From Limosilactobacillus sp. (GTDB taxonomy: Bacteria; Bacillota; Bacilli; Lactobacillales; Lactobacillaceae): DNA of 64,000 nucleotides. The stretch lies in assembly GCF_022651205.1 (NCBI RefSeq), contig NZ_JALCQI010000002.1:58902-122901 (forward strand). The letters run 5' to 3'. The translations under genes and the position numbers were made by a program. The notes beneath the pieces are model-generated. The model saw only the letters and a list, made by a program, of their open reading frames with translations, did not search any database and was not told the origin of the DNA. This document shows positions 15,453 through 64,000 of this stretch, in pieces (position 1 is the first letter of the stretch; every line of letters starts with the position of its first letter).

Positions 15453-15589
15453 TAATCAGCTTCCTTTCCGTAATTTTTGATGCTATTTAATATTATACTA
15501 GCTTTTAACTAAAGAAAAATAATTTGGATTAATTTATTTGGAAAATAATAAAGAGGCCAAGAAAAACTTCCTGACCTCATGTTTAATCT

Positions 15590-15692
15590 CTAAAAAAACT
15601 TAGAGCACAAGATACATCAAACTTAGTGCTGCTTCCTTCCGGACCTGACACGGTTCGTAAGCATACCCTTGCTCTAAGGCCTTACGGCATGT
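15590..15692 (-). ncRNA. ffs: small bacterial signal recognition particle RNA
   Basis: Reverse complement contains GGTCCGGAAGGAAGCAGCACT and upstream CTTACGAACCGTGTCAG; between tadA and dnaX. Confidence 0.88.
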
Positions 15693-27993: not shown

Positions 27994-28027
27994 GAATTTT
28001 CACCTCCTGCAATGTAGTTTGATCGGA

Positions 28028-28140
28028 TTTATAAAAAAATCCCTATGACCGCAGACATAGAGAAGGAACTTAATTCTTCCTCGGCAGGCATACGATTAAG
28101 GCTTTCGCCACCTGAGTCTTAGGCAGAGTCATATTTAATC
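28028..28140 (-). promoter_or_regulatory. ribosomal protein L10 leader
   Basis: 5'UTR of rplJ with GACTCAGGTGGCGAAAGCCTTAATCGTATGCCTGCCGAGG and AGACATAGGGATTTTTTT-type terminal hairpin. Confidence 0.75.
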
Positions 28141-28264
28141 AACTTTAGTAGTATAACATCTTCGTTTTTCCTTGTAAAGGATAACTCGAATTTTATTCAG
28201 ATAGCTGAAGAGAAAGGAGGTGTTGTACAATTAAACTATTAACTGCTTGAAGGAGCTTAAATAT

Positions 28265-31210: not shown

Positions 31211-31286
31211 GGCGGTATGTGGGATTCGAACCCACGCGTGCCGGACCCACAAACCGGTGTGTTAACCAAACTTCACCAATACCGCC
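31211..31286 (-). tRNA. tRNA-His (GTG)
   Basis: GGCGGTAT...CCGGTTTGTGGGTCCGG...GTGGGTTCGAATCCCAC...ATACCGCC; 8-bp acceptor including G-1. Confidence 0.9.
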
Positions 31287-49138: not shown

Positions 49139-50758
49139 ATGACAGATGCAATGGCGATTCTTAATAATCCATTTATAAATAAGGGAACCGCATTTACCAT
49201 GGAGGAACGCAAACGGTTGGGCTTAATTGGTACTCTTCCACCGCGTGTTAAGACAATCGAAGAACAAGAAGCTGATACCTACGCACTTTACGAGAGTAAG
49301 TCATCACGAATTGAAAAGCGTCACTTCTTGATGGAAGTTTTCAACGCTAACCGAACACTTTTCTTTTACTTAATGGAGAAACACATTACTGAAATGATGC
49401 CAATCGTTTATGATCCCGTCATTGCAGAATCAATCGAAAAATATAATGAACGTTACCTTCGCCCTCAAGATGCTGTTTACCTTTCCGTTAAACATCCAGA
49501 GGACATTAAGGAAAGCTTGCAAAACGTTAGCGCTGATCGTGATATTCGCCTGATTGTTGTTACCGACTCACAGGGGATCCTCGGAATTGGTGACTGGGGT
49601 GTTGATGGCGTGGACATCGCTGTTGGGAAGTTAATGGTTTATACCGCAGCCGCTGGTGTTAATCCTTCCCAAGTTCTGCCGATTTCTATTGATGCCGGAA
49701 CTGACAATGAAACCTTGTTAAATGATCCTAACTATCTTGGTGAACGTCATCACCGAATTACTGGTCAAGAATATTTTGACTTTATTGATCGGTTTGTCGA
49801 CACCGTTGAAGAACTTTACCCAAAGAGTCTCTTACACTTTGAGGATTTTGGTCGGGGAACGGCAGCACGAATTCTTGATAAGTACCACGATCGAATTTTG
49901 ACCTTTAATGATGATATTCAAGGAACCGGGATTATCGCCCTTGCTGGAGTCCTCGGTGCACTAAATATTTCCAAAGAAAAGTTGGCTGACCAAAAATTCT
50001 TAACGTTCGGTGCCGGAAGTGCCGGAATGGGAATCGCTAAAATGTTGTTTGACGAGTTGGTTCGGCAAGGAATGGATCCGACTGAAGCTAAGAAGCACTT
50101 CTACCTAGTCGACAAGCAAGGCCTTCTCTTTGACGATACTGAAGGCTTAACACCTAAGCAAAAGCCATTTACTCGCCAACGAAGCGAATTTACTAACGCT
50201 GATGAACTAACGAACTTAGCAGCAGTTGTTAAGGCAATCCACCCAACAGTAATGATCGGGACATCTACACAACCCGGAACTTTTACTGAAGAAATCGTTA
50301 AGGAAATGGCTGCTCATACTGAACGCCCAATCATTTTCCCTCTTTCAAACCCAACTAAGCTTGCGGAAGCACGGGCAGATGATCTTCTAAAATGGACAGA
50401 TGGTAAAGCACTAGTCGCTACCGGTATTCCAGTCGAAGATATTGACTACAACGGGGTAACCTATAATATTGGCCAGGCCAACAACGCTTTAATTTATCCA
50501 GGAGTTGGCTTTGGGGCAATTGCAACTGAAGCAAAGCAAATCAATAATGCGATGCTTGCAGCTGCTGCCCATTCCCTTGTCGGCTTGGTTGACCCCAATC
50601 AACCTGGTGCTGCGGTTCTTCCTCCTGTTAAGGATATGGCAAAGTTCTCCAAGACGGTTGCCATTGCGGTTGCCCAATCCGCAATCGATCAAGGCCTTTC
50701 ATCTGCCAAGGATGCTCAAAAAGCAGTCGAAAAGATGACCTGGGAAGCAAAATATTAA
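49139..50758 (+). CDS. mleS: malolactic enzyme
   Basis: [57 protein letters not shown]. Confidence 0.93.
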
Positions 50759-50856
50759 TTGAGTTTTATTGCGAGACTAAAAAGCCATAGTCTCGCTTTT
50801 CTGTTTTTAAATCACTATAATATTAAGTAATACTTATTTAAGGAGCGTGAACTATT

Positions 50857-52197
50857 GTGAGTTTTAATATTACTGACTCAGCAATTAATGATTTTCATCG
50901 CGATTACCATAACCGAAAAGAAAGCAGTGTCCTTGAAAATGCCGTTACTAAGAACGGTGTTAACGCTGCTAGTTTTAATTGGCATTCAATTGCTGATAAC
51001 GACCCGCATTTTTCAATTGATCTCAAGACAGGGGATGTTGCTGACCAAAAACAATCTGGTCGTTGCTGGATGTTTGCTGCCCTAAACACAATGCGTCATG
51101 ACATGCAACACCGGTTCAACCTACCAGATAACTTTGAACTTTCTCAATCCTACCAATTCTTCTGGGATAAGTTTGAAAAGGCCAATTACTTTTACGAAAA
51201 CGTTATTAAAACCGCAAGTCTCCCTACTGGTGACCGCAAGATCGATTGGTTAATGGAAGCTCCACAATCTGATGGTGGCCAATGGGATATGCTCTGTGCC
51301 CTAATTGAAAAGTATGGGGTAATGCCAAAGTCCGCAATGCCTGAATCATTTAATTCAAACCGTTCTAACGGAATTAACTCCCTACTAAATAACAAGCTTC
51401 GCCACGATGCCGTAATTCTTCGGAAGATGATTAACGAAGATCACGCTACTGAAGAAGCCGTTACTGCTAAACGGAAGGAAATGTTAAATGACGTTTACCG
51501 GATGCTAGCATATGCTTTTGGTGAACCAGCTAGTCATTTTGACTTTGAATACCGGACAAAGAAGGATAATGAATTTCACCATGACGAAAACATTACGCCA
51601 CAAGAATTCTTTAAGAAGTACGTTGGCTGGAACCTAGATGACTATATTTCAATCATTCAAGCGCCAACTGCTGATAAGGAATACTACAAGACTTATACTA
51701 TCGATATGCTTGGCAATGTCGTTGGTGGACGGCAAATCAAGCACCTTAACCTACCAATGGCCGAATTTAAAAAGCTCGCAATCGATCAACTAAAAGCTGG
51801 CGAAAGTGTTTGGTTTGGTTCGGATGTCGTTAAATACTCCGAAACTAAGCTTGGGATCATGGCCCTTAACACCTACGACTATTCTCAACTATTCGATACC
51901 GACCTTGACATGACCAAGGCCGACGCACTTGATTACAGTCAAAGTATGATGGATCACGCAATGGTCCTTACTGGTGTTGATCTAGTAAACGACCAGCCAA
52001 CTAAGTGGAAAGTCGAAAATTCCTGGGGACCAAAAGTCGGAACTAAGGGATATTTTGTAATGAGCGATGCCTGGATGGATAAATACTGCTACCAAATCGT
52101 CGTTAACAAGAAATACCTTAGTGACAAACTCAAGCAGGCCCAAGCCCAAGATCCCATCGTCCTCAAGCCCTGGGACCCAATGGGAACGTTGGCATAG
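50857..52197 (+). CDS. pepC: aminopeptidase C (bleomycin hydrolase family)
   Basis: VADQKQSGRCWMFAALNTMRHD; MMDHAMVLTGVD; WKVENSWGPKVGTKGYFVMSDAWMD. Confidence 0.97.
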   Translation: MSFNITDSAINDFHRDYHNRKESSVLENAVTKNGVNAASFNWHSIADNDPHFSIDLKTGDVADQKQSGRCWMFAALNTMRHDMQHRFNLPDNFELSQSYQFFWDKFEKANYFYENVIKTASLPTGDRKIDWLMEAPQSDGGQWDMLCALIEKYGVMPKSAMPESFNSNRSNGINSLLNNKLRHDAVILRKMINEDHATEEAVTAKRKEMLNDVYRMLAYAFGEPASHFDFEYRTKKDNEFHHDENITPQEFFKKYVGWNLDDYISIIQAPTADKEYYKTYTIDMLGNVVGGRQIKHLNLPMAEFKKLAIDQLKAGESVWFGSDVVKYSETKLGIMALNTYDYSQLFDTDLDMTKADALDYSQSMMDHAMVLTGVDLVNDQPTKWKVENSWGPKVGTKGYFVMSDAWMDKYCYQIVVNKKYLSDKLKQAQAQDPIVLKPWDPMGTLA

Positions 52198-52565
52198 GAA
52201 AAAGAGTGCGAGCCAGCAGAGGACTTGCGGTTGGTTAACGATTTCTTCTGGCGAGGGCGTGACTTGTCACGTCTAGCCAGAAGGTCGTTAACTCTAGCAA
52301 GTCCCTGGCGAGCAGATCTAGGCTGTGTAATAGTAGAAGGAAACTCGGGCGAAGCGCAGTGGCTGAGTGGCTTTTGTCATCAACAAGTTGATAGCCAAAA
52401 ACCTACTCATCCTTGCGTGGGTTCACAGACGAAATTGATAAATCAATTTCTGGTTCACTCCAACGTTTTGACTATGCTGCAGTAGAAACTCGGACAAGAC
52501 ACAGCACAATTTCTCCCTCCTGGATACTAAAAGCATCTAGGAGGGAGTTTGTTATCTACATTCAG
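52198..52565 (+). repeat. structured 3'UTR element, copy B (after pepC), compound
   Basis: TAG-GAAAAAGAGTGCGAGCC...GGACTTGcggttGGTTAACGATTTCTTCTGGC...GCCAGAAGGTCGTTAACtctagCAAGTCC...GGCGAGC; second C-like hairpin acaaTTTCTCCCTCCTggatactaaaagcatcTAGGAGGGAGTTTGTT at about 52508-52557. Confidence 0.7.
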
Positions 52566-52655
52566 AATATCTATCATTAAATTTCAATAATAGATTGACA
52601 TTTATTTCTAATTAGAATATGATACCTGTAACTTCAAACGAAAGGAACGATTGTT

Positions 52656-52688
52656 ATGTTAAAGCAACTTTGGCAAGCCTGGCGCTGA
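52656..52688 (+). CDS. trp leader peptide MLKQLWQAWR (two Trp codons)
   Basis: GAAAGGAACGATTGTT-ATGTTAAAGCAACTTTGGCAAGCCTGGCGCTGA, followed by competing hairpins and a terminator upstream of trpB. Confidence 0.75.
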   Translation: MLKQLWQAWR

Positions 52689-52692
52689 CTAA

Positions 52693-52809
52693 GTGAGACT
52701 ACAACTAGTGTAGGCTCACATTTTGACGTTGAATCAAAAGAGTCTGCACTAGGGCAATCGTTTTTAATAATGATGTCCCGATGGTGTAGAGATCGTCGGG
52801 ACTTTTTTT
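52693..52809 (+). promoter_or_regulatory. trp attenuator (hairpin 1:2, putative antiterminator, terminator)
   Basis: GTGAGaCTACAactagTGTAGgCTCAC; terminator GTCCCGATGGT-gtagag-ATCGTCGGGAC-TTTTTTT (52775-52809). Confidence 0.75.
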
Positions 52810-52852
52810 GCATAGTGTCCAGGCTCGCCCACATAAAAGGAGTTTGGAATTT

Positions 52853-54061
52853 ATGAATAATCAAGAAATCAATGCTAAAGCAGAAGAAACAATGTATTAT
52901 GGTGAATTTGGCGGCCAATATGTCCCAGATGCAATCAAGCCTGCACTAGATGAAGTTACCAACTATTACAAGAAATACCAGCACAACCCACAATTTCGGA
53001 TTGAGTTAGCGGAATTACTTCGCGACTATGCCGGCCGTGCAACCCCACTCTACTATGCTGAAGGATTAACAAAATACCTTGGTGGTGCCAAAATTTATCT
53101 AAAACGTGAAGATTTGAATCACCTTGGAGCTCATAAGATTAATAATGTTTTAGGACAAATTTTATTAGCCAAACGGATGGGCAAGAAACGAATCATTGCC
53201 GAAACTGGAGCTGGTCAACACGGGGTTGCTACTGCTGCCGCTGCCACAAAATTAGGTTTGAAATGCAAGATCTATATGGGCGGATTAGATACCGACCGGC
53301 AAAAATTAAATGTTTTCCGGATGCGTCTAATGGGTGCAGAGGTTAAAGCAGCTGGCGGACCCCAAGGAGTTCTCGAAGACGCGATCCATGCTGCTCTTAC
53401 AGACTTAGCACAAAATTACCAAGATACGTACTACCTGGTTGGCTCTGCTGTTGGTCCATACCCTTATCCTGAAATGGTTCGTGATTTTCAAAGTGTAATT
53501 AGTCATGAAGCTCGGCAACAATTCCTTGATAAAGAAGGTCGGTTACCCGATGCTGTAATTGCCTGCGTGGGCGGTGGCTCTAACGCAATCGGTGCGTTTA
53601 ACAATTTCATCGACGATCCTCAAGTACGATTAATTGGTGCGGAAGGTGCAGGTAAGGGTGCGGAAACATCACAAAACGCCGCAACGATGACCAACGGAAC
53701 CGTAGGAATTAATGATGGAATGAAATCCTACCTCCTTCAAGACGAAAATGGTCAGCCACTACCTGTTTACACCATTTCCGCTGGCCTTGATTATCCTGGT
53801 GTCGGCCCAGAACATTCAATGCTTAAAGATATTAATCGAGCAGAATATTATGCGATTACTGATGATGAGGCGATAGAAGCATTCCAACTTCTTTCCAAGT
53901 TAGAAGGGATCATCCCCGCACTAGAAAGTTCTCACGCAATTGCTGAAGCAATCAAAATTGCACCGCAAATGGATAAGGATCAGCTAATAATGATTAATCT
54001 CTCTGGTCGTGGTGATAAGGATGTCCAACAAGTGGCGGATTATTTGGGTGAACAAGAATAG
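52853..54061 (+). CDS. trpB: tryptophan synthase beta subunit
   Basis: MYYGEFGGQYVPDAIKPALDEV; LKREDLNHLGAHKINNVLGQ; VGGGSNAIGAFNNF; LSGRGDKDV. Confidence 0.96.
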   Translation: MNNQEINAKAEETMYYGEFGGQYVPDAIKPALDEVTNYYKKYQHNPQFRIELAELLRDYAGRATPLYYAEGLTKYLGGAKIYLKREDLNHLGAHKINNVLGQILLAKRMGKKRIIAETGAGQHGVATAAAATKLGLKCKIYMGGLDTDRQKLNVFRMRLMGAEVKAAGGPQGVLEDAIHAALTDLAQNYQDTYYLVGSAVGPYPYPEMVRDFQSVISHEARQQFLDKEGRLPDAVIACVGGGSNAIGAFNNFIDDPQVRLIGAEGAGKGAETSQNAATMTNGTVGINDGMKSYLLQDENGQPLPVYTISAGLDYPGVGPEHSMLKDINRAEYYAITDDEAIEAFQLLSKLEGIIPALESSHAIAEAIKIAPQMDKDQLIMINLSGRGDKDVQQVADYLGEQE

Positions 54062-54074
54062 AATTATAAATTGC

Positions 54075-54118
54075 TAAACACGCCCTCGGCAGAAATAAAA
54101 TGCTGAGGGCGTGTTTTA
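54075..54118. terminator. bidirectional terminator after trpB
   Basis: aaacacgccctcggcagaaataaaatgctgagggcgtgtttt. Confidence 0.8.
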
Positions 54119-54288
54119 TGCGTTATATATTGTCGAGATCTGCTCGCCAGGAACTCGGCTAGACAACTGAGTCGAAACGTGTTCGCAGGGAAGCCCCTAT
54201 AGACAACAAACTCCCTCCCAGATGCTTTCCAGCATCCAGTCGGGAGAAATTGTTGTCTTACGGGCCTTCTTAACCTGCTCACACTCTA
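54118..54288 (-). repeat. structured 3'UTR element, copy C (after ABC substrate-binding protein)
   Basis: Sense begins at the stop codon: TAGAGTGTGAGCAGG...AGACAACAATTTCTCCC...GGGAGGGAGTTTGTTGTCT...CCTGCGAACACG. Confidence 0.7.
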
Positions 54289-55077
54289 TCTTGTAACATC
54301 ATCCCCAAAGTACTTTTGGGAGAGTTTTTTGACGGTGCCGTCTTTTTGGAGTTTCTTCAATGCTTGGTTGTAGGAAGATTGAATTGCTGAATCTTTCTTG
54401 TTAAAGAGGGCTGAAATTTTAGCCGGTTTAACTTCACTAGAAACGTCGATCATCTTGAGACCCTTGGTACTGTTCTTTTTACCATAGGCATACCATGCTT
54501 CTCGTGAATTGACTGTTCCTTCTGCCCGTCCCTGCTTTACCATTGCTAAGGAACTACTAAAATCACCATTTGGAACAAGGGTACCATGGTACTTCTTAAC
54601 AACATCGGCGTTATTAGTACCGGTACCAGCAACGATTTTCTTCCCCTTAATTTGCTTCAGGTTCTTAATCTTACTATCCTTAGGCACAATTAGGACATAC
54701 CGGGACTTAATATATGGTGTCGAGAAGTTATACTTCTTTGCACGCTCTGGGGTTTGCGTAATATTATTCATTACAACATCATATTTTCCAGAACCTAGGC
54801 CGGCCACTAATGAGTCCCATTTACTAGGAACAAACTTTGCCTTTAACCCCATTTCCTTTGCGACCGCTTTGCCGAGATCAACCTCGAATCCCGTTAACTT
54901 ATTGTTCTTCCGGTATGAATAAGGAGAGTAAGTCCCTTCAAGACCAATTGTCAGCTCTCCTTTTTGCTTTAATTCTGAATTAACTTTCGATGATGCTGCA
55001 TGAATACTAGTAATTCCGGCAGTTGTTCCCACCGTGAGTGCCACTAAGGTCACCAATACTTTTTTCCAAATTTTCAT
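54286..55077 (-). CDS. amino-acid (probably cystine) ABC transporter substrate-binding protein
   Basis: GELTIGLEGTYSPYSYRKNNKLTGFEVDLGKAVAKEMGLKAKFVPSKWDSLVAGLGSGKYDVVMNNITQTPERAKKY; SBP_bac_3 family. Confidence 0.9.
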   Translation of the reverse strand: MKIWKKVLVTLVALTVGTTAGITSIHAASSKVNSELKQKGELTIGLEGTYSPYSYRKNNKLTGFEVDLGKAVAKEMGLKAKFVPSKWDSLVAGLGSGKYDVVMNNITQTPERAKKYNFSTPYIKSRYVLIVPKDSKIKNLKQIKGKKIVAGTGTNNADVVKKYHGTLVPNGDFSSSLAMVKQGRAEGTVNSREAWYAYGKKNSTKGLKMIDVSSEVKPAKISALFNKKDSAIQSSYNQALKKLQKDGTVKKLSQKYFGDDVTR

Positions 55078-55092
55078 TTTTGATTTCTCCTT

Positions 55093-55845
55093 CTAACTTA
55101 AATTCTCCATCGTCATTGATGCAATAAAGTTCTTAATCCGGTCATTTGGATTATTCTGGGAAAAGAATTCTTCTGGACCGCCATCATAAAGAACCTGTCC
55201 TTCTTCTATAAAGACGATTTTGTCAGCGATTTGTTTAGCAAAAGCCATGTTATGGGTTACAAGAACCATCGATTGCTTCTCACGGGCCAATCTCAAAAGA
55301 ACCTTCAAAACACTTAATTCTAGCTCTGGATCAAGAGCGGAAGTTGGTTCGTCGAGGAGGAGGTACTGTGGCTTCATTGCTAGAGCTCTTGCAATTGCGA
55401 CCCGTTGTGCTTGCCCTCCTGATAGTTCATTCGGATAAACATCACTATAATCAGCCATCCCCACCTTGGTCAACAATTCTCTGGCTAACTCACTTGCCTG
55501 TTTCCGTCCCATCTTTAGGACCTGAGTAGGCCCTTCAATAACGTTATTGAGAACTGTTTTATGAGGAAAGAGATTATAATCCTGAAATACCATCCCTGTT
55601 TCCCGCCGGATTGCCAATTTTTCCTTGCTGCTAATCTTTTGACTAAAATCAATCTGGTGACCATTGAAGTCATACTGGCCACTCTCCGGCGTCACCAAAA
55701 GATTTAGTGACCGCAAAATTGTTGACTTTCCAGAACCGGACGGACCAACCATCACCGTAATTTTCCCTGCAGGAATTTCCAACGTGACATCTTTCAGGAC
55801 GTGTTTCTTACCGTAAACTTTATTAATCTGAGTTAATTTCATCAC
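55093..55845 (-). CDS. amino-acid ABC transporter ATP-binding protein
   Basis: VGPSGSGKSTILRSLN, LSGGQAQRVAIARALAMKPQYLLLDEPTSALDPE. Confidence 0.95.
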   Translation of the reverse strand: MMKLTQINKVYGKKHVLKDVTLEIPAGKITVMVGPSGSGKSTILRSLNLLVTPESGQYDFNGHQIDFSQKISSKEKLAIRRETGMVFQDYNLFPHKTVLNNVIEGPTQVLKMGRKQASELARELLTKVGMADYSDVYPNELSGGQAQRVAIARALAMKPQYLLLDEPTSALDPELELSVLKVLLRLAREKQSMVLVTHNMAFAKQIADKIVFIEEGQVLYDGGPEEFFSQNNPNDRIKNFIASMTMENLS

Positions 55846-55855
55846 ATTTCTCCCC

Positions 55856-56551
55856 TTAACTAACCCTTATCTGACTGCCTAACCGTTTCTCCAGGTAGTG
55901 CTGAATCCCTGAAAGAACCGTTGTAAACACTGCATAAATTAGCGCTACTAACGTGTACATCAATAACGGCTGATAGTTAGCTGCCGCAATTTGCTGGCTA
56001 ACTTCAAACATCTCCATAATCGTAATTGAAGCAGCCAATGAGGTGTCCTTGACCAAACTAATAAAGCTGTTTGATAGCGGTGGTAGTGCAATCCGAAGCG
56101 CCTGAGGAATAATAATCCGCCACAATACTTGCAAGCGGGTCATTCCGATTGCCGCACCAGCCTCCCATTGACCACTAGGGACTGCACTAATTGCGGCCCG
56201 AATGGTTTCCGATGCATATGCACCGGTGTTCAAGGAAAAGGTGATTATTCCTGCAGTAAACGGCTCAAGCTTGATCCCGTGAGGCAATACTCCTTTAATT
56301 CGTAAGTATGGTAGACCAAAAAAGACGATAAATAGTTGAACTAGTAAAGGGGTCGACCGGAATAGCCAAACATAGAACTGGGCAAGCCATTTAAGGAGCA
56401 TAAATAATCCATGTTGACGCGAAAGACGAATCAATGCGGTTACCAATGCAATAATTAGGCCGAAGAAGAACGAAATTAATGCTAGGGGGATCGTATATTT
56501 AAATCCCGCTGCTAAAAGTTGAGGTAACGATTCCTGAATTATTTCCCACAT
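55856..56551 (-). CDS. amino-acid ABC transporter permease
   Basis: EAGAAIGMTRLQVLWRIIIPQALRIALPPLSNSFISLVKDTSLA (EAA loop). Confidence 0.95.
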   Translation of the reverse strand: MWEIIQESLPQLLAAGFKYTIPLALISFFFGLIIALVTALIRLSRQHGLFMLLKWLAQFYVWLFRSTPLLVQLFIVFFGLPYLRIKGVLPHGIKLEPFTAGIITFSLNTGAYASETIRAAISAVPSGQWEAGAAIGMTRLQVLWRIIIPQALRIALPPLSNSFISLVKDTSLAASITIMEMFEVSQQIAAANYQPLLMYTLVALIYAVFTTVLSGIQHYLEKRLGSQIRVS

Positions 56552-56630
56552 GGTTTACTTATCCTTTCTTAACTAATTTAACTTATTTAATACCTGTTCT
56601 CATTCAACGATTATTTCAAATAAATGATCC

Positions 56631-56673
56631 AAAAAGGCGAAACTTCAAGTTAAACTTGAAATTGCGCCTTATG
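56631..56673 (-). terminator. attenuator terminator in cystine-transporter leader
   Basis: Sense: AAGGCGcAATTTCAAGTTTAACTTGAAGTTTCGCCTTTTT. Confidence 0.75.
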
Positions 56674-56703
56674 TACTTACCCCGACAATATTAGCAGGCC
56701 AAA

Positions 56704-56790
56704 TTAAATTTGGGTACGCCAAAACGTGGGTCGCATAAGACGCGATCCACAACAACAAACAACAGCGTTAACAAATTGAATGTTTTTCAT
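56704..56790 (-). CDS. Cys-rich leader peptide MKNIQFVNAVVCCCGSRLMRPTFWRTQI
   Basis: AGGAGG RBS 8 nt upstream of ATG; three consecutive TGT codons; followed by the terminator hairpin and the ABC operon; absent from the ORF track. Confidence 0.75.
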   Translation of the reverse strand: MKNIQFVNAVVCCCGSRLMRPTFWRTQI

Positions 56791-56858
56791 GACGTGTTCC
56801 TCCTAATAAAGTATGAATAGAATATAACTTATTTATAGTAAGTTGTCAACAAAAAGTT

Positions 56859-57986
56859 TTAAAGTAACGGATCATAACGAACTGAATCAGGATTCTGTGT
56901 ATCGTTAAGATATTTCTTAAATAATGGTAGCTTAAACCGTACTCTACCATTACCAGCTGGTGTGATTAGATCTTGTTGAATCATTCGTCGTCGGTATTGG
57001 TTAACATAGTTTTGTTGTTGCTTAGCTGACTTATCGTAATTCATCAGCGAAGCAATTTCGGTAGTTGACATACCATTAGCTATCCCTCGTAAGTACTTCC
57101 TATCATTAGTCGAAAGATTATCAAAAATAATATCATAACTTTGAGTGAACAGATCTTCAATATAAAGCTGCTTAATTACTTCAAAGGTTTTCTGATTTGG
57201 TTTTTGATGACTAATATTAGTAGCATTCCATAATTTATATCCAAGGAGTTGAAAAGCAAATGAATAGCCACCTGTTAATTGAGCCATTTGATGACTAAGC
57301 ATTGGTGAAAAATTAAGGTGCTTTTGATATTCATTTTCGATTTGATTAATATCTAACATTGTGGTTTGAATATGCCGCGCTCGCTTGAGAAAGGTCAACG
57401 TCTGCTCGTGCTCAATCTCATAAATCATCTGCGGTAAGCCATCAGCTACTAAGTAAAAATTTAATCTATGCCGTTTAAGATTTTGAAGCAATTGAATAAA
57501 CTCACGAGTATTCTCTTTGTGATTAAATTCATCAATAAAAATAACTACCTGCTTGTCAAGCTTGGTTAACATTTCCATGAAATTTTCAATATCTTGAGTA
57601 GTATAGTCCTCATTTGTCTTATTAAAACTTAAACTAAAACCCATGATTGAAATTGTCGAGATGTGATCAAGTAATGAATGAATCTTAAAAATGTTTTTCA
57701 ACTCGCGCCCAAACGCTTGAACCATGTGTTGGTTATTATCAATTTCCAAAATATAAGTGTTATTAAGTTGCTCAACCTGTTGTTCAACTTTGGTTAACAG
57801 TGCTGTCTTCCCCGAGCCACGGAGACCAGTAATGAAAATCACTCGATTGGGATCGCCATACTTTATAGCTTCCGCAACTGCTTGTGGGCTTTCAAAGTCA
57901 CTTTGATAATTCGGTAACATAATCTTCGGCGGAGTTCCAAAACTAGGATCAAATGGATTCCTTGGTAATTTTTCCAATCGATTCAC
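56859..57986 (-). CDS. AAA ATPase (ORC/Cdc6- or STAND-like), unknown role
   Basis: VIFITGLRGSGKTALLTKVEQQV; QVVIFIDEFNH; C-terminal winged-helix-like region. Confidence 0.75.
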   Translation of the reverse strand: MNRLEKLPRNPFDPSFGTPPKIMLPNYQSDFESPQAVAEAIKYGDPNRVIFITGLRGSGKTALLTKVEQQVEQLNNTYILEIDNNQHMVQAFGRELKNIFKIHSLLDHISTISIMGFSLSFNKTNEDYTTQDIENFMEMLTKLDKQVVIFIDEFNHKENTREFIQLLQNLKRHRLNFYLVADGLPQMIYEIEHEQTLTFLKRARHIQTTMLDINQIENEYQKHLNFSPMLSHQMAQLTGGYSFAFQLLGYKLWNATNISHQKPNQKTFEVIKQLYIEDLFTQSYDIIFDNLSTNDRKYLRGIANGMSTTEIASLMNYDKSAKQQQNYVNQYRRRMIQQDLITPAGNGRVRFKLPLFKKYLNDTQNPDSVRYDPLL

Positions 57987-57990
57987 CTTC

Positions 57991-58057
57991 TTTTACATTT
58001 CACTTTTATTTTACATTCTTTTACATTCCACTTTTATTTTACATTTTTTTACATTTC
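57991..58057. repeat. 28-bp tandem repeat, ~2.4 copies, in the promoter region of the AAA ATPase
   Basis: ttttacatttcacttttattttacattc / ttttacattccacttttattttacattt / ttttacatttc. Confidence 0.9.
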
Positions 58058-58109
58058 TGAGCAAACAAAATAGCCTCCAACTTAACTCAGTCGAAGGCTA
58101 CATATTATC

Positions 58110-58991
58110 TTAAGAATTCAATATTCTATCCAAGAAAGATTTAACATCGTCGTAGATTGTTTGACTCCAGAAGTCACGCTCATGGTTAGCGCCAGTAACA
58201 CAATAAGCTTCAACGCTAGCCCCAACTGATTCTAGCTTTTGCGCCATTTCTTCCATTTGGTGATAAGGAACAACCTTATCGGCATCACCGTGGAAAAGTT
58301 GGAACGGTGGATATTGCTTCCCATCTTCTACTTGGTAGAGCGGACTCATTTCACGCATAACTGCTGGCCACTTTTTCTTATCTGGACCAAATAGACAGAA
58401 TTTCAACAGGTCATTACCGAGAACATTTTCTGAATTTTTAAAGGTCTCTTCAACGTCCATCGGCGCAAAACAGGAAACAACGGCTGAAACAGCATCAGAT
58501 TGTTCAGTGTAATCAGCCGTCTTATACCGTGAATCATCACCGGTAAGACCAACCAACATTGCTGCGTTGGCTCCAGAAGATGTCCCCCAAATTGCAACTC
58601 GTTTAGGATCAATTGCATATTTCTTAGCGTTAGCCCGTAAAAAGCGAATTGCTGTCTTCACGTCCTGAAGAAATGCTGGGAAGGGATGGCCGTCTAGTGA
58701 GTTCCGGTGTTGAACTGTCGCTACAATATAGCCGTCATTCACAAACTGAACTAGTTGCGGGATCTTTTCACCAAGCGTTGGTAGGCGCCACGAACTTCCC
58801 TGAACAAAAACGATTAGTGGTCGTGGTTCAGTAGTATATTCACGAGGATAACGCTGCGTCCAGGGAGCTAAGATTTCGAGCTTCAGTGGTTGCCCATCAA
58901 CCGCAGCATACGTGATATTCTCAATTAAGCGAACTTGCCCACTTAGGGTTGGGTTATTGGGGATCTTATGAATTACCATTCTCTTCACCAT
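58110..58991 (-). CDS. alpha/beta hydrolase (carboxylesterase-like)
   Basis: RPLIVFVQGSSWRLPTLGEKIPQLVQFVNDGYIVATVQHRNS; RVAIWGTSSGANAAML; HGDADKVVPYHQ. Confidence 0.9.
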   Translation of the reverse strand: MVKRMVIHKIPNNPTLSGQVRLIENITYAAVDGQPLKLEILAPWTQRYPREYTTEPRPLIVFVQGSSWRLPTLGEKIPQLVQFVNDGYIVATVQHRNSLDGHPFPAFLQDVKTAIRFLRANAKKYAIDPKRVAIWGTSSGANAAMLVGLTGDDSRYKTADYTEQSDAVSAVVSCFAPMDVEETFKNSENVLGNDLLKFCLFGPDKKKWPAVMREMSPLYQVEDGKQYPPFQLFHGDADKVVPYHQMEEMAQKLESVGASVEAYCVTGANHERDFWSQTIYDDVKSFLDRILNS

Positions 58992-59664
58992 CCATTGTAA
59001 TAAAGGTCTTCTTAATAATATTTAGAGCTGAATCAAACTCGTAAAGGATCGGTTTACCATTAGGAACCTCAACCTGATCAATTTGATCATCCGGAATTTG
59101 ATCAAGATATTTAATTAATGCACGTAAAGAACTACCGTGAGCAACAATTAGCTGGTTCTTCCCGTCAAGTAGCCGTGGAGCGATCTGATCCTGCCAGTAA
59201 GGTAACAAGCGTTTCTGGGTCATTGCGAGACTCTCACTATACGGCATCTTCACTCCAAGCCGATCATACCGTCGCTCGTGCTGACGATGAGTTAGTTTAG
59301 GCGGAACTTCGCTGTAGCCACGTCGCCAGCGGTGGAGTTGTTCCGCGCCAACTTCTTCCTTAACTTTGGCTTTATTTAAGCCACTAAGGGCTCCATAATG
59401 ACGTTCGTTTAGTCGCCAGGTCTTATGAACGGGGATGAATAATTGGTCAACCCGATCCAGGATAATATTCATCGTTTTAATGGCTCGAGACATATAAGAA
59501 GTATGGGCATCAGCAAACTCTAATCCCATCTTTGCTAATTCTTCACCAACTAGTTCTCCTTGTTCAATTCCTTTTTCCGTTAACGGAACATCTGTCCATC
59601 CGGTAAAAATATTATCACGGTTAGCTTGGCTTTGACCATGACGAACTATTACTAACTTTACCAT
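58966..59664 (-). CDS. gpmA: 2,3-bisphosphoglycerate-dependent phosphoglycerate mutase
   Basis: VKLVIVRHGQSQANRDNIFTGWTDVPLTEKG; RLNERHYGALSGLNKA. Confidence 0.95.
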   Translation of the reverse strand: MVKLVIVRHGQSQANRDNIFTGWTDVPLTEKGIEQGELVGEELAKMGLEFADAHTSYMSRAIKTMNIILDRVDQLFIPVHKTWRLNERHYGALSGLNKAKVKEEVGAEQLHRWRRGYSEVPPKLTHRQHERRYDRLGVKMPYSESLAMTQKRLLPYWQDQIAPRLLDGKNQLIVAHGSSLRALIKYLDQIPDDQIDQVEVPNGKPILYEFDSALNIIKKTFITMDGEENGNS

Positions 59665-59811
59665 TCTCAGCCACTCCTTTGCACCCTTCTATGATACAGC
59701 AATTGTGTATGATTGAACAGGGTCACTCCTTGCAGGAAGTAGCTTTTAATCGTGACATAAAAATCGCCACATCGACTTTTATCTAAGTTGAAATGACGAT
59801 TATCTTTGAAA

Positions 59812-60777
59812 TTACTTTTCATTCAACATTACTGAAAATTCAATGTCTTGGTCTGCTGGGATATGGTACTGCTTTTCAACATCAGCACCCCAGCTATCAA
59901 TTCCACCAACACCACGAACGGCACCAGCAATCACAAGGACAGTTCGCCGCGCTAAGGGAAGTTCTTCAATATGGGTTGCCGATTCAAGTTCTTCAGCAGT
60001 ATATGGCAAACAACTAAAGTTAAAGGGCTTATCTACTTGTCCGACCTTTAGTGAAAATGGTGCAGTTGAGTGATCAGCATTATTTTCCGTTATTTCCCGG
60101 GTAATTTTTAGCTGCTTCGTTTTCATGTGCATCCCGTTTTCCTGAGGAACAAGGTACTTAGCTACCGGAAGGCCATCAACATGGTATTTCCCAGGTTGAG
60201 CACCGGCCATTCGGTCAGGATAGGTTTCACCAGAAAGACCCTCATAGTCAAAACTGGTTGCCGTAGTTGGCATGATAAACCGTAAGCCAAATACTGGAAG
60301 CTCTGGCAAATCTGGATGACCAAAGTAATGGGCTGTCAATTTAATTTGACCGTTAGCAGACACTAAGTATGTAACTGTAACCTTAGTTGCTGGAACAGTC
60401 AAGGTTTCATAGGTAAACCTAATTTTGACATTATCAGCTGTTTCGTGGTTAGAAAATTGGTTTGTCTCTGGAGCGATTGGTAGTTTTTCAAAGTGATGAT
60501 CATCAACCGTCAAGTCAGTCTGATCATTAAGACACTTCGTAAAGGTATCTGCAGCTAACCATTGTGCCGACTTGATGTTGAAGCCACTTCCCCGATCATT
60601 ATCGGTGGTTGCCCGCCAAAATGTTGGTGTTGGAACACGGTAAAGCCATTCCTTGCCGTTTAGTTTCAGCGATTCTAAGCCGCCTTTTTCGTAACTGAAG
60701 ATATAGTGAAAGCCATCGCCACCAATTCCCAGCGTTCCGTCACCGTAGATCACGTGTAATTTATTTGTGTAAGCCAT
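59812..60777 (-). CDS. lacM: beta-galactosidase small subunit
   Basis: [47 protein letters not shown]; overlaps lacL end. Confidence 0.95.
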
Positions 60778-62710
60778 AGTAATAACGTACCTCCTGCATA
60801 GCTGGTTTTGGTGTCCGGTCAGCAAACATTAGACCATCACCAGAGAATTCGTAATCTGAATGACGATCGTCAAAGTCGCCACCATACCGCATAACCATTT
60901 GTCCACTGATTGGGTCCTTTACTTGGATTGCTTGGTCGATGAAGTCCCAAATAAAGCCGCCAAAGTATTGAGGATACTTATCAAGAAGTTTGATGTATGA
61001 TCCCATTCCACCAGCGGAATTACCCATATCGTGCATGTACTCACATTCCATAAATGGTTTATCTGGATTGTTCTTTAGATATTCTTCAACCTGCTTTGGT
61101 GGTAAGTACATCCAACTTTCAACATCCGAGATTTGATCCCGATAATCCTTAGTACCACCCTTTGGTAGGTAATTATCTGGATCCATACTTGGAATTTGAT
61201 CACTATAATCGTGAGTATGACAAACTCCTTCATAGTGAACTAACCGACTATCATCATGCTCCTTATAGAACTGTTGCATAGCCACTAGGTTGTCACCAGC
61301 AAACGATTCATTCCCAAGAGACCAGAACAAGATTGCCGTGTGGTTCTTAAAGAATTCATAGTTGCTCCGTGCCCGGTCAACGACTACTTCTTTCCATTGG
61401 GGAACAGATCCCGGAACGTTATCTGAAGGTTCAATGGCCCCCATCTTTTGCCAGGTAGCGTGCGATTCCAAGTTATTTTCCGCCATCATGTAAATACCAT
61501 TTTGGTCACACAGGTAGTACCAAGGAATTTGGTCTGGATAGTGACAAGTCCGAACCGCATTAATGTTATTTTCCTTAAAGGTGTGAATATCACTAAGCAT
61601 ATCCGGCATTGTAACTGAACGGCCACGGTGATCGTCCCATTCATGGCGGTTGACACCGTTAATAATCAACCGTTTTCCATTTAAAAGAACAACGTGGTCC
61701 TTGCTAATCTCAATTCTCCGGAAACCAAATTGGTAAGGAACTAACTCAATCAGATTGCCATCTTCATCATGAATCTCAATCAACAATTGGTAAAGATAAG
61801 GATCGTGGTTATCCCAAAGATGAACATCCTTAAATTCGTGTGGTGCAATTGTCACATTGCTGTCAATTGGCTTCGTTTCATCCAGTAAAGTACTTCCTGC
61901 ATGATTCTTAACTAATACATGAACGTTTCCGGCATGTTCACCAACAAGGTTAAGGTCCATTGATAGTTCACCATCACGGTAATTATCAGCAACCCGTGGC
62001 TTCAATGTGAAGTCTTCTAGGTGGGTTACCGGTTGTGCCAGCAATTCAACACTCCTAAAGATTCCAGAGAAGCGGAACATATCCTGATCCTCGATCCACG
62101 AAGCAGTACTGTGTTTAAATACCTCTACCGCAATCACATTGTCCTCATCCTGAATGTATGGGGTTAAATCAAACTCAGACGGTGTAAAACTATCTTCAGC
62201 ATAACCAATAAAGTGACCATTTAGCCACAAGTACATTGCCCGCTCAACACCTTCAAAGCGGACACGGATTTGCTTTCCCCTTAATTCATCATTTAGATCA
62301 AAATGCTTCAAATAAAGGCCAACGGTGTTATCTTCGCCTTCACTAAAAGAGCCCTCTTCAGGATCATCCTGACTTAGTGCATAGGCAGGGCGACGATAAA
62401 TTTTCCCTTCCCACGGAATTAACGTATTAATGTAATTGTTCTGTGCATAATCGCTTAATTCGATTTCACTAGGAACCTCGATCTGATCAAAGCCACTAGC
62501 GTCAAAGTCAACTTGATAGAAATCCTTAATTCTCTCCTGAGGCGTTGAGGCAAATTTAAATTGCCATTGACCATCAAGACTTTGTTCAAAGCTACTCTTG
62601 TGTTTCTGCCACTCTGCATAATCACGGTAGAAATGGTGGTCACTATGCGCTGGTAGCTGGTTAACCCGAAAAGTCTCCGGATCATCCAACCATTTGATAT
62701 TTGCTTCCAT
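60761..62710 (-). CDS. lacL: beta-galactosidase large subunit
   Basis: [64 protein letters not shown]. Confidence 0.97.
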
Positions 62711-62750
62711 CGGCGAAATTCCTCCTAAAAAATTCATTACAAATCAAGTA

Positions 62751-62766
62751 TAGCGCTTTCATTTAA
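62751..62766. promoter_or_regulatory. candidate cre (CcpA) site in lacLM promoter
   Basis: Minus strand AAATGAAAGCGCTATA, near-match to WTGNAANCGNWWNCW. Confidence 0.4.
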
Positions 62767-62848
62767 ATGAAGATAGTAAACTTTAATACATTTTACTAAA
62801 AATAAAGCAGTCCGTGACCATTAAAGTCACGAACTACCTTTCCAAAAT

Positions 62849-63436
62849 TTAACTATACTTTTCTTCGATGTCATCAGGGACCCAACTATAGTCCTTAACT
62901 TTATTAATTAGTACTTTACCATGATCCGCCGAGTATATTAATTCTGTGTCACCCAAACTGTTATCCCAAAGCTCTATCACATCAAATTCATCGTAAAGCT
63001 CGACTAATCGTTACAAGCTCCTGGTATATCTCCGAGTAACCAGATCAGGTTTTACACCATGTCCACCCTTGGAGACTCGTAATTTAACTCGATTAACAGC
63101 TAGTTTGGCGCTAACCAAGCCTACATATTCTAAGCGCACTGTATACCCTCGGTTTTTGGCAAAGTTAATAAATTTCAAGATTCCCTTCCGACTTGAAGCA
63201 AGTGTCGTCTCCTGGATAACGTTATGTCCCGATAACAACTCTTGCTTTAGCTTAGTAACAGCAACCCGCATTGCTTTTAAATTATCCAGATCAGAATGCC
63301 AATCCCCATGCATTGATCGTAAAATCTTGTCGGCATTAATCAACACATAATTCTTATCATTATTTAGCAAAGACCTATATAGAGTGCTTTTACCTGCGCC
63401 ATTTACCCCAGCTAAAATTATATACTCAGGCATCAA
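62849..63436 (-). pseudogene. zeta-toxin-like P-loop kinase, interrupted by an in-frame TAA
   Basis: MMPEYIILAGVNGAGKSTLYRSLL...TRRYTRSL* (stop 63011-63013), then same frame RLVELYDEFDVIELWDNSLGDTELIYSADHGKVLINKVKDYSWVPDDIEEKYS*. Confidence 0.75.
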
Positions 63437-63606
63437 AGGACAAACTTCCCTTCAATGATTGGTTTTTGAACTTCTCGCAGTCTAGAATTTAACAGATCAT
63501 AGAGAAACAATCTTTTGCTTTCATCCGTTTCGTTATCAGCCATTCGCTTAATTTCTGCAGGTGTCAAACTATGAAACCAGTCATAAAATTCCGTTGCCTT
63601 ATCCAT
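63433..63606 (-). CDS. putative small antitoxin partner of the zeta-like toxin
   Basis: MDKATEFYDWFHSLTPAEIKRMADNETDESKRLFLYDLLNSRLREVQKPIIEGKFVL; 4-bp overlap with toxin start. Confidence 0.6.
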   Translation of the reverse strand: MDKATEFYDWFHSLTPAEIKRMADNETDESKRLFLYDLLNSRLREVQKPIIEGKFVL

Positions 63607-63698
63607 AATAATCATCCCCTTTACTCAATCTAAATATATATTCTCGTTATATTAAAGGATCCTTTTATATGCGCATCACTTTTAATACATTTGTGAAT

Positions 63699-63868
63699 TT
63701 AATTTTGATTTATTAAATCAAATAATTGTTCTACCTTGGAAATAATCCGACTTTGCTCGGCTAATGGTGACAAAGAAAAGATTGCATTTCGTAATCTTGT
63801 TAAAGCTAACTTAGGTTGAGCAACCTTTGCAAAATAATTATACAGCAGAAACAGGTTGCTTTACTATG
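63699..63868 (-). pseudogene. remnant of type I restriction specificity subunit (HsdS) C-terminus
   Basis: Own translation: ...NYFAKVAQPKLALTRLRNAIFSLSPLAEQSRIISKVEQLFDLINQN*, typical HsdS PLAEQxRI motif; upstream part missing. Confidence 0.65.
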
Positions 63869-63895
63869 CAGCCCTATCCTATTCAACAAAAAAAG

Positions 63896-64000
63896 GCTCT
63901 ACGTCAAGTAGTGTTGATCAGAAAATTTTCGCTTTACATTGTAAAATTGGTCTAAAGGAATCATCTATGAGGATGGTTCCTTTTAACTTACCTGAATTTG
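63896..64000 (+). mobile_element. possible terminal end of an ISL3-family insertion sequence
   Basis: GGCTCTACGTCAAGTAGTGTTGAT resembles ISL3-type inverted repeats and abruptly follows the hsdS remnant; transposase not in window. Confidence 0.45.

Follow-up and report, generated by a model that had tools for sequence, protein, structure and literature searches.

T-boxes are the amino-acid sensors usually described for lactobacilli. Poly-Cys attenuators have reportedly been studied in mycobacteria. In attenuators of the classical trp and his type, and in Rli60 of the Listeria ilv-leu operon, a short ORF with codons for the regulated amino acid is followed by competing antiterminator and terminator structures and an operon for the same amino acid (PMC5864092). 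The element reported here has the same parts, but it concerns cysteine, has a different sequence, occurs in another clade and makes up a distinct family in front of several operons. Runs of Cys codons also mark the short ORFs predicted as leaders of cys or cbs operons in Actinobacteria; however, no conserved terminator hairpins were reported there (PMC1262725), whereas terminator, antiterminator and protector hairpin all covary in the present case. Tandem Cys codons and a terminator are also found in uORFC-8-2 upstream of cysS in Rhodobacterales, for which Cys attenuation has been proposed (PMC8632094). That element differs in belonging to Alphaproteobacteria, in its single target cysS, in having two Cys codons and in its structure. 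Classical attenuation is a known kind of control; as far as we searched, the present Cys family in Firmicutes, its regulon and its breadth are provisionally undescribed. We found no description of a Lactobacillales Cys leader peptide in the open-licence literature, and the novelty is provisional because our search was limited to open-licence papers.

RNA-seq published in 2018 showed the cysK2-ctl1-cysE2 operon of L. paracasei FAM18149 to be expressed ~8-fold more strongly when the medium was deficient in Cys than when it was deficient in Met (PMC6004538). High coverage of its 5'-UTR and a predicted terminator were reported, no T-box was present, and the control mechanism was called 'yet to be discovered'; a Cys T-box lies upstream of a different L. 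paracasei transporter operon (PMC6004538). According to the same paper, a motif AAAGGGCGCGAA-N(11-18)-TTCGCGCCTTTT upstream of cystathionine genes of lactobacilli had been proposed as regulatory, a proposal attributed to Liu et al. 2012.

We analysed a window of 64,000 nucleotides from Limosilactobacillus sp. (contig NZ_JALCQI010000002.1, positions 58,902 to 122,901), for which a preliminary description had claimed a Cys-codon leader peptide and attenuator upstream of a putative cystine transporter. The leader region has the following parts, numbered from the first letter of the window.

56821..56849, (-) strand: promoter TTGACA-17-TATATT, sigma-70 type (11/12 matches)
56796..56801 (within a base or two), (-) strand: ribosome-binding site (RBS) AGGAGG of the leader peptide, read from the sequence
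56704..56790, (-) strand: leader peptide ORF MKNIQFVNAVVCCCGSRLMRPTFWRTQI, 28 codons, with homologues in relatives
56749..56757, (-) strand: regulatory Cys codons TGT TGT TGT, conserved across aligned leaders
56728..56748, (-) strand: segment 1:2, protector hairpin P1 (56748-56742 with 56734-56728), supported by covariation
56734..56743, (-) strand: antiterminator (AT) strand GCGTCTTATG, segment 2, supported by AT covariation
56664..56673, (-) strand: segment 3 CATAAGGCGC, common to antiterminator and terminator, supported by pairing and covariation
56631..56670, (-) strand: intrinsic terminator (segments 3:4) and T tract, supported by folding and two-sided changes

The ORF at 56790-56704 on the minus strand, with its AGGAGG and its TGT TGT TGT, was found where it had been described. 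The 10 bp pairing of GCGTCTTATG (56743-56734) with CATAAGGCGC (56673-56664), including one G-U, was confirmed, as was a terminator sharing the AT-partner segment; the pairing of this terminator is kept in 37 related leaders. The proposed competing local hairpin also exists. Its register was refined to 56748-56742 with 56734-56728, an A-C mismatch included, which we prefer because 56747 then pairs with 56729, a covarying pair. P1, AT and the terminator are mutually exclusive. The terminator hairpin spans ~56670-56634 with the T tract at 56635-56631 and has a folding energy of -18.9 kcal/mol; a simple terminator scan with strict rules did not report it. Most of 42 related leaders have a TTGACA-like -35 box (spacing 16-18 nt) at a nearly fixed position in front of them, and the listed homologous leader ORFs are also preceded by an RBS. 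The peptide MKNIQFVNAVVCCCGSRLMRPTFWRTQI has no match in Pfam or NCBIfam, and Rfam 15 at gathering score gave no family at the window leader. Rfam matches elsewhere in the window, all away from the leader, were an L10 leader (28025-28141), a small SRP RNA (15589-15686) and a tRNA (31211-31285). Directly upstream of the leader promoter, on the same strand, lies a gene for an ATPase_2/AAA-type protein (56859-57986).

The leader is followed on the same strand by a gene remnant and three transporter genes.

56573..56617 (approximate), (-) strand: degenerate 3'-terminal remnant of cgl, aligning to loci L029 and L031
55856..56551, (-) strand: ABC permease, matched best in NCBIfam by the cystine permease model PRK15100 (235.6 bits, cut-off 300)
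55093..55845, (-) strand: ABC ATP-binding protein, GlnQ/TcyN type, by Pfam and NCBIfam profile matches
54286..55077, (-) strand: substrate-binding protein SBP_bac_3 (Pfam PF00497, 7e-43; cystine-binding model PRK11260, 174 bits, cut-off 312)

That the operon encodes a polar amino-acid transporter with an SBP_bac_3 protein was borne out. Its assignment to the cystine type stands less firmly: the best models are cystine models, yet the window proteins do not reach the curated NCBIfam cut-offs for cystine transporter subunits (TcyJLN/CyuABC type). The assignment is supported by the Cys leader and by the linked cgl in relatives, where the same leader is followed by cgl (cystathionine lyase family) and then by this transporter. 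In the window, ~45 nt between terminator and permease align with the last cgl codons and the cgl-permease junction of L029 and L031, and one further locus (L007, also L122) has a partial cgl at the position matching the remnant. As judged from these alignments, the window operon is a leader-cgl-transporter operon that has lost its first gene and retained the control region, because the 3' remnant remains and relatives have the complete arrangement.

Compensatory changes were found in all three helices. In alignment A2, 87% of the P1 cells are paired and six of the seven pairs have changed on both sides; column pair 26-44, for example, is GC in 29 sequences, AU in 6 and CG in 1. Nine of the 16 terminator pairs show two-sided changes (35 cells, compared with 9.5 in shuffles). 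The AT helix is paired in 92% of cells of a 77-sequence alignment, and the best slid register reaches 54%; it has 48 double-changed cells versus 12.8±2.9 in shuffles, a number reached in none of 500 shuffles. Pair 36-177 of this helix is GC in 55 and AU in 17 sequences. In one example, GCAUC replaces GCGUC in the leader and GGUGC replaces GGCGC in segment 3, and the 3' arm of the terminator is altered too. The shuffle statistics take no account of relatedness, but a tree artefact is unlikely for the AT covariation because many genera contribute and because of the slid controls.

A DNA search gave matches in 19 of 61 genomes, nearly all of them in the genus of the window. The DNA pattern for CCC-x-SRLMR occurred in 21 of 401 Lactobacillaceae genomes and its reversed control in none of the 401; a scan of named genomes placed the motif in Limosilactobacillus, Paucilactobacillus, Lactobacillus and Ligilactobacillus. 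Elsewhere in Lactobacillales the strict motif was absent from roughly 325 genomes. Matches outside Lactobacillaceae in the named genome collection were mostly frames without start or RBS, and we rejected them as chance. The leader arrangement in the window is not a chance find, since close relatives keep it, the reversed pattern gave no match and the outside matches lack the leader context. We also built a covariance model from 37 leaders (alignment A1), including only P1 and the terminator and leaving AT out. It matched 62 of the 401 Lactobacillaceae genomes, in eight genera, and no other family. The 37 aligned leaders have a T-tailed hairpin at their end; their first Cys codon is TGT in 37/37, the second always encodes Cys and the third does so in 36/37.

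A Cys-rich leader with at least two Cys was present in each of 40 further loci that we fetched (a Cys run in 37, CLC or CPC in 3). The operons behind this architecture are cgl-cyuABC, cyuABC, cysK, cysK-cgl-cysE and related ones, where CysE was called from sequence and from annotated plasmids. The further loci adjoin cysteine genes (cysK, cgl or a cystine-type ABC transporter), except for a few Ligilactobacillus copies (L091, L204 and L208), in which leaders with CCCCTSRL or CCCCSSRL precede a gene that by eye encodes an OppA-like binding protein. These copies suggest that Cys control extends to the import of Cys-containing peptides. The search for Cys leaders upstream of homologous operons that had been put forward as a check thus found them in eight genera of Lactobacillaceae. 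Loss of the Cys codons in relatives, which would have refuted the attenuator, did not appear: these codons are the most conserved part of the leader. In L005 and L123 the leader upstream of cgl has CCS in place of CCC. Two permease orthologs from the genus of the window (L138 and L139) lie in operons without a Cys leader; at ~1340-1500 both share another 5'-UTR, CAGTACAGCGA...GGGTCTGGAA. Its similarity to a T-box is very weak (13.4 bits, where the gathering score is 93), and the regulator has possibly been replaced at these loci.

We found the same type of element in the 5'-UTR of L. paracasei cysK2-ctl1-cysE2, an operon that is Cys-responsive and for which premature termination has been suspected (PMC6004538). 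On the FAM18149 plasmid, a leader MMSQSMFNAINCCCRTTRFWRCSAC behind CGGAGG, together with AT and terminator, precedes cysK2-ctl1-cysE2, and the covariance model matches it with an E value of 1.7e-5. When this leader was folded, AT formed whichever of the three Cys codons the ribosome occupied, whereas a ribosome at the stop codon gave no AT. The previously proposed palindromic motif coincides with the terminator. The earlier study noticed the terminator but reported neither a leader peptide nor a mechanism (PMC6004538). The FAM18149 data are the strongest outside support for an attenuator, and they are correlative.

We folded 77 leaders in silico with a ribosome footprint placed on the RNA, which was either full length or extended only up to segment 3, as during transcription. 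With RNA up to segment 3, AT formed in 68 of 77 leaders when the ribosome stalled at the first Cys codon and in 67 at the second, and in none at the third Cys codon or the stop codon. This geometry is compatible with release of the AT strand during transcription. In full-length RNA with the ribosome at the stop codon, the terminator formed in 74/77. Full-length equilibrium folding was uninformative for most loci as a test of mechanism, and the co-transcriptional truncations were used instead: with the ribosome at the first Cys codon, AT won at full-length equilibrium in only 15/77. Without any ribosome, AT beat P1 at equilibrium in 66/77 of the RNAs ending at segment 3. These last two results mean that kinetics must decide between the structures, as they do in classical attenuators, and that an untranslated RNA will terminate only if P1 is the first to form. 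We infer that termination is the default in this state.

In the mechanism that we propose, a constitutive-looking promoter would give a leader RNA of ~200 nt whose 28-codon ORF is translated. When cysteine is ample, the ribosome would clear the Cys codons and arrive at the stop codon, with segment 2 covered or else sequestered in P1; the terminator would then form from segments 3 and 4, and transcription would end before reaching the cystine-type transporter genes. If Cys-tRNA is scarce, the ribosome would stall when its A site holds Cys codon 1 or 2, masking the 5' arm of P1. Segment 2, being free, could pair with the emerging segment 3, so that no terminator would form and the operon would be transcribed.

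The locus has the marks of a classical attenuator: an RBS-led ORF between promoter and terminator, a run of codons for the end product that is conserved above the rest of the peptide, a terminator upstream of the operon, a covarying AT that excludes the terminator, and downstream genes for that same amino acid. We are highly confident that it is a classical ribosome-mediated attenuator that senses charged tRNA-Cys and responds to stalling at the Cys codons with antitermination, stalling and expression being inferred. The anatomy, the conservation, the covariation of three helices, the gene context and the published Cys response of a homologous element are data. Translation, the kinetic choice and a Cys response in the window's species, like stalling, are inferences. 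The original reading as Cys attenuation is supported in that the Cys codons are conserved, the helices compensate and the downstream genes are cysteine-related; for this organism the response itself remains inferred.

If CCC-SRLMR acted as a small functional protein or arrested the ribosome as a nascent chain, the peptide and not the charging of tRNA-Cys would matter, and the near-invariance of CCC[GE]SRLMR within three genera could be expected. We regard this as very improbable. Third codon positions are fixed too, and outside these genera the sequence that follows the Cys run (CVPRLSR, CEVRFLY, CGLCLGQ, CRTTRFWR) changes in step with the RNA pairing, which is preserved. Moreover, TGA directly follows the third Cys codon in a leader of Limosilactobacillus coleohominis (L009/L073), a natural experiment on the importance of the tail peptide. 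The SRLMR tail is largely determined by RNA pairing. Comparison of the leaders indicates that selection maintains the Cys codons and the pairing rather than a peptide, because the tails diverge with pairing retained and one leader ends after CCC. Cys codons could also act through translational coupling or Rho-dependent termination, the modes put forward for poly-Cys leaders in Actinobacteria, where such leaders are known without terminators (PMC1262725). This is no less improbable, given that practically all aligned related leaders contain an intrinsic terminator that covaries and has a T tract, and that there is a covarying antiterminator as well.

Two further explanations would make the leader ORF a bystander. 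The palindrome in the 5'-UTR could be the operator of a sulfur regulator, in the manner of the AAAGGGCGCGAA-N(11-18)-TTCGCGCCTTTT motif, for which a regulatory role is reported to have been proposed (PMC6004538). But this palindrome coincides with a T-tailed terminator and is accompanied by Cys-run leaders, covariation links its 5' arm to a strand that lies ~80-100 nt upstream within the leader ORF, and the arm sequence varies between genera, unlike an operator; we give the idea even less credence than the previous two. Least plausible of all, to the point of being nearly ruled out, is a Cys-specific T-box or other riboswitch with a coincidental ORF. T-boxes are the usual amino-acid sensors of the family, and another L. 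paracasei transporter operon has one for Cys (PMC6004538). However, neither the T-box family (RF00230) nor any other Rfam family matched at the leader in the window and six representative loci, and the conserved parts are the Cys-codon ORF and the attenuator. Ribosome-mediated attenuation at the Cys codons remains our reading of the element.

A distribution beyond Lactobacillaceae emerged only when we read the regions upstream of cysK orthologs directly. Among close cysK orthologs from six Lactobacillales families, 37 of 40 (24/27 and 13/13) have an RBS-led mini-ORF with a Cys run ~180-300 nt upstream, usually with a T tract just before cysK, and none of seven distant cysK paralogs has a Cys-run leader. 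Controls gave 0/27 on the reverse strand and 23/1080 (2%) in shuffles. In Enterococcus faecalis (L219:1274-1411), a 45-residue Cys leader with a terminator behind it precedes cysK-metB; it is already annotated as hypothetical protein WP_002355203.1. Membership of the leaders outside Lactobacillaceae in the attenuator family is provisional because only their peptide, RBS and T tract were assessed, with no antiterminator worked out. With that reservation for the distant members, the locus is part of an order-wide system and not a single oddity. We think it fairly probable, though well short of settled, that Cys-codon attenuation is an ancestral and main cysteine sensor of Lactobacillales, present in at least six families on cysK-cgl-cysE (methionine-to-cysteine) and cystine uptake operons, and that peptide and RNA turn over fast while the Cys run and the three-helix logic persist, some lineages having switched leader type. 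It appears to turn on cysteine uptake and synthesis genes at low cysteine in lactobacilli, and probably does so in other lactic acid bacteria.

The attenuator offers a concrete explanation of how Cys governs cysK2-ctl1-cysE2, for which none had been given (PMC6004538), and the palindromic regulatory motif proposed earlier can be reinterpreted as half of an attenuator. It also predicts Cys-responsive operons in many food and gut species, and the leader helps to assign cystine specificity to transporters that score below curated cut-offs.

Two other features of the window were recorded. A gene for TrpB (tryptophan synthase beta subunit, 52850-54061) is convergent with the transporter operon, and no trpA was seen beside it among the ORFs listed for 50000-64000. 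At 63011-63615, with a small ORF upstream, lies a gene for a P-loop kinase that by eye (GxNGAGKST) looks similar to zeta toxin.
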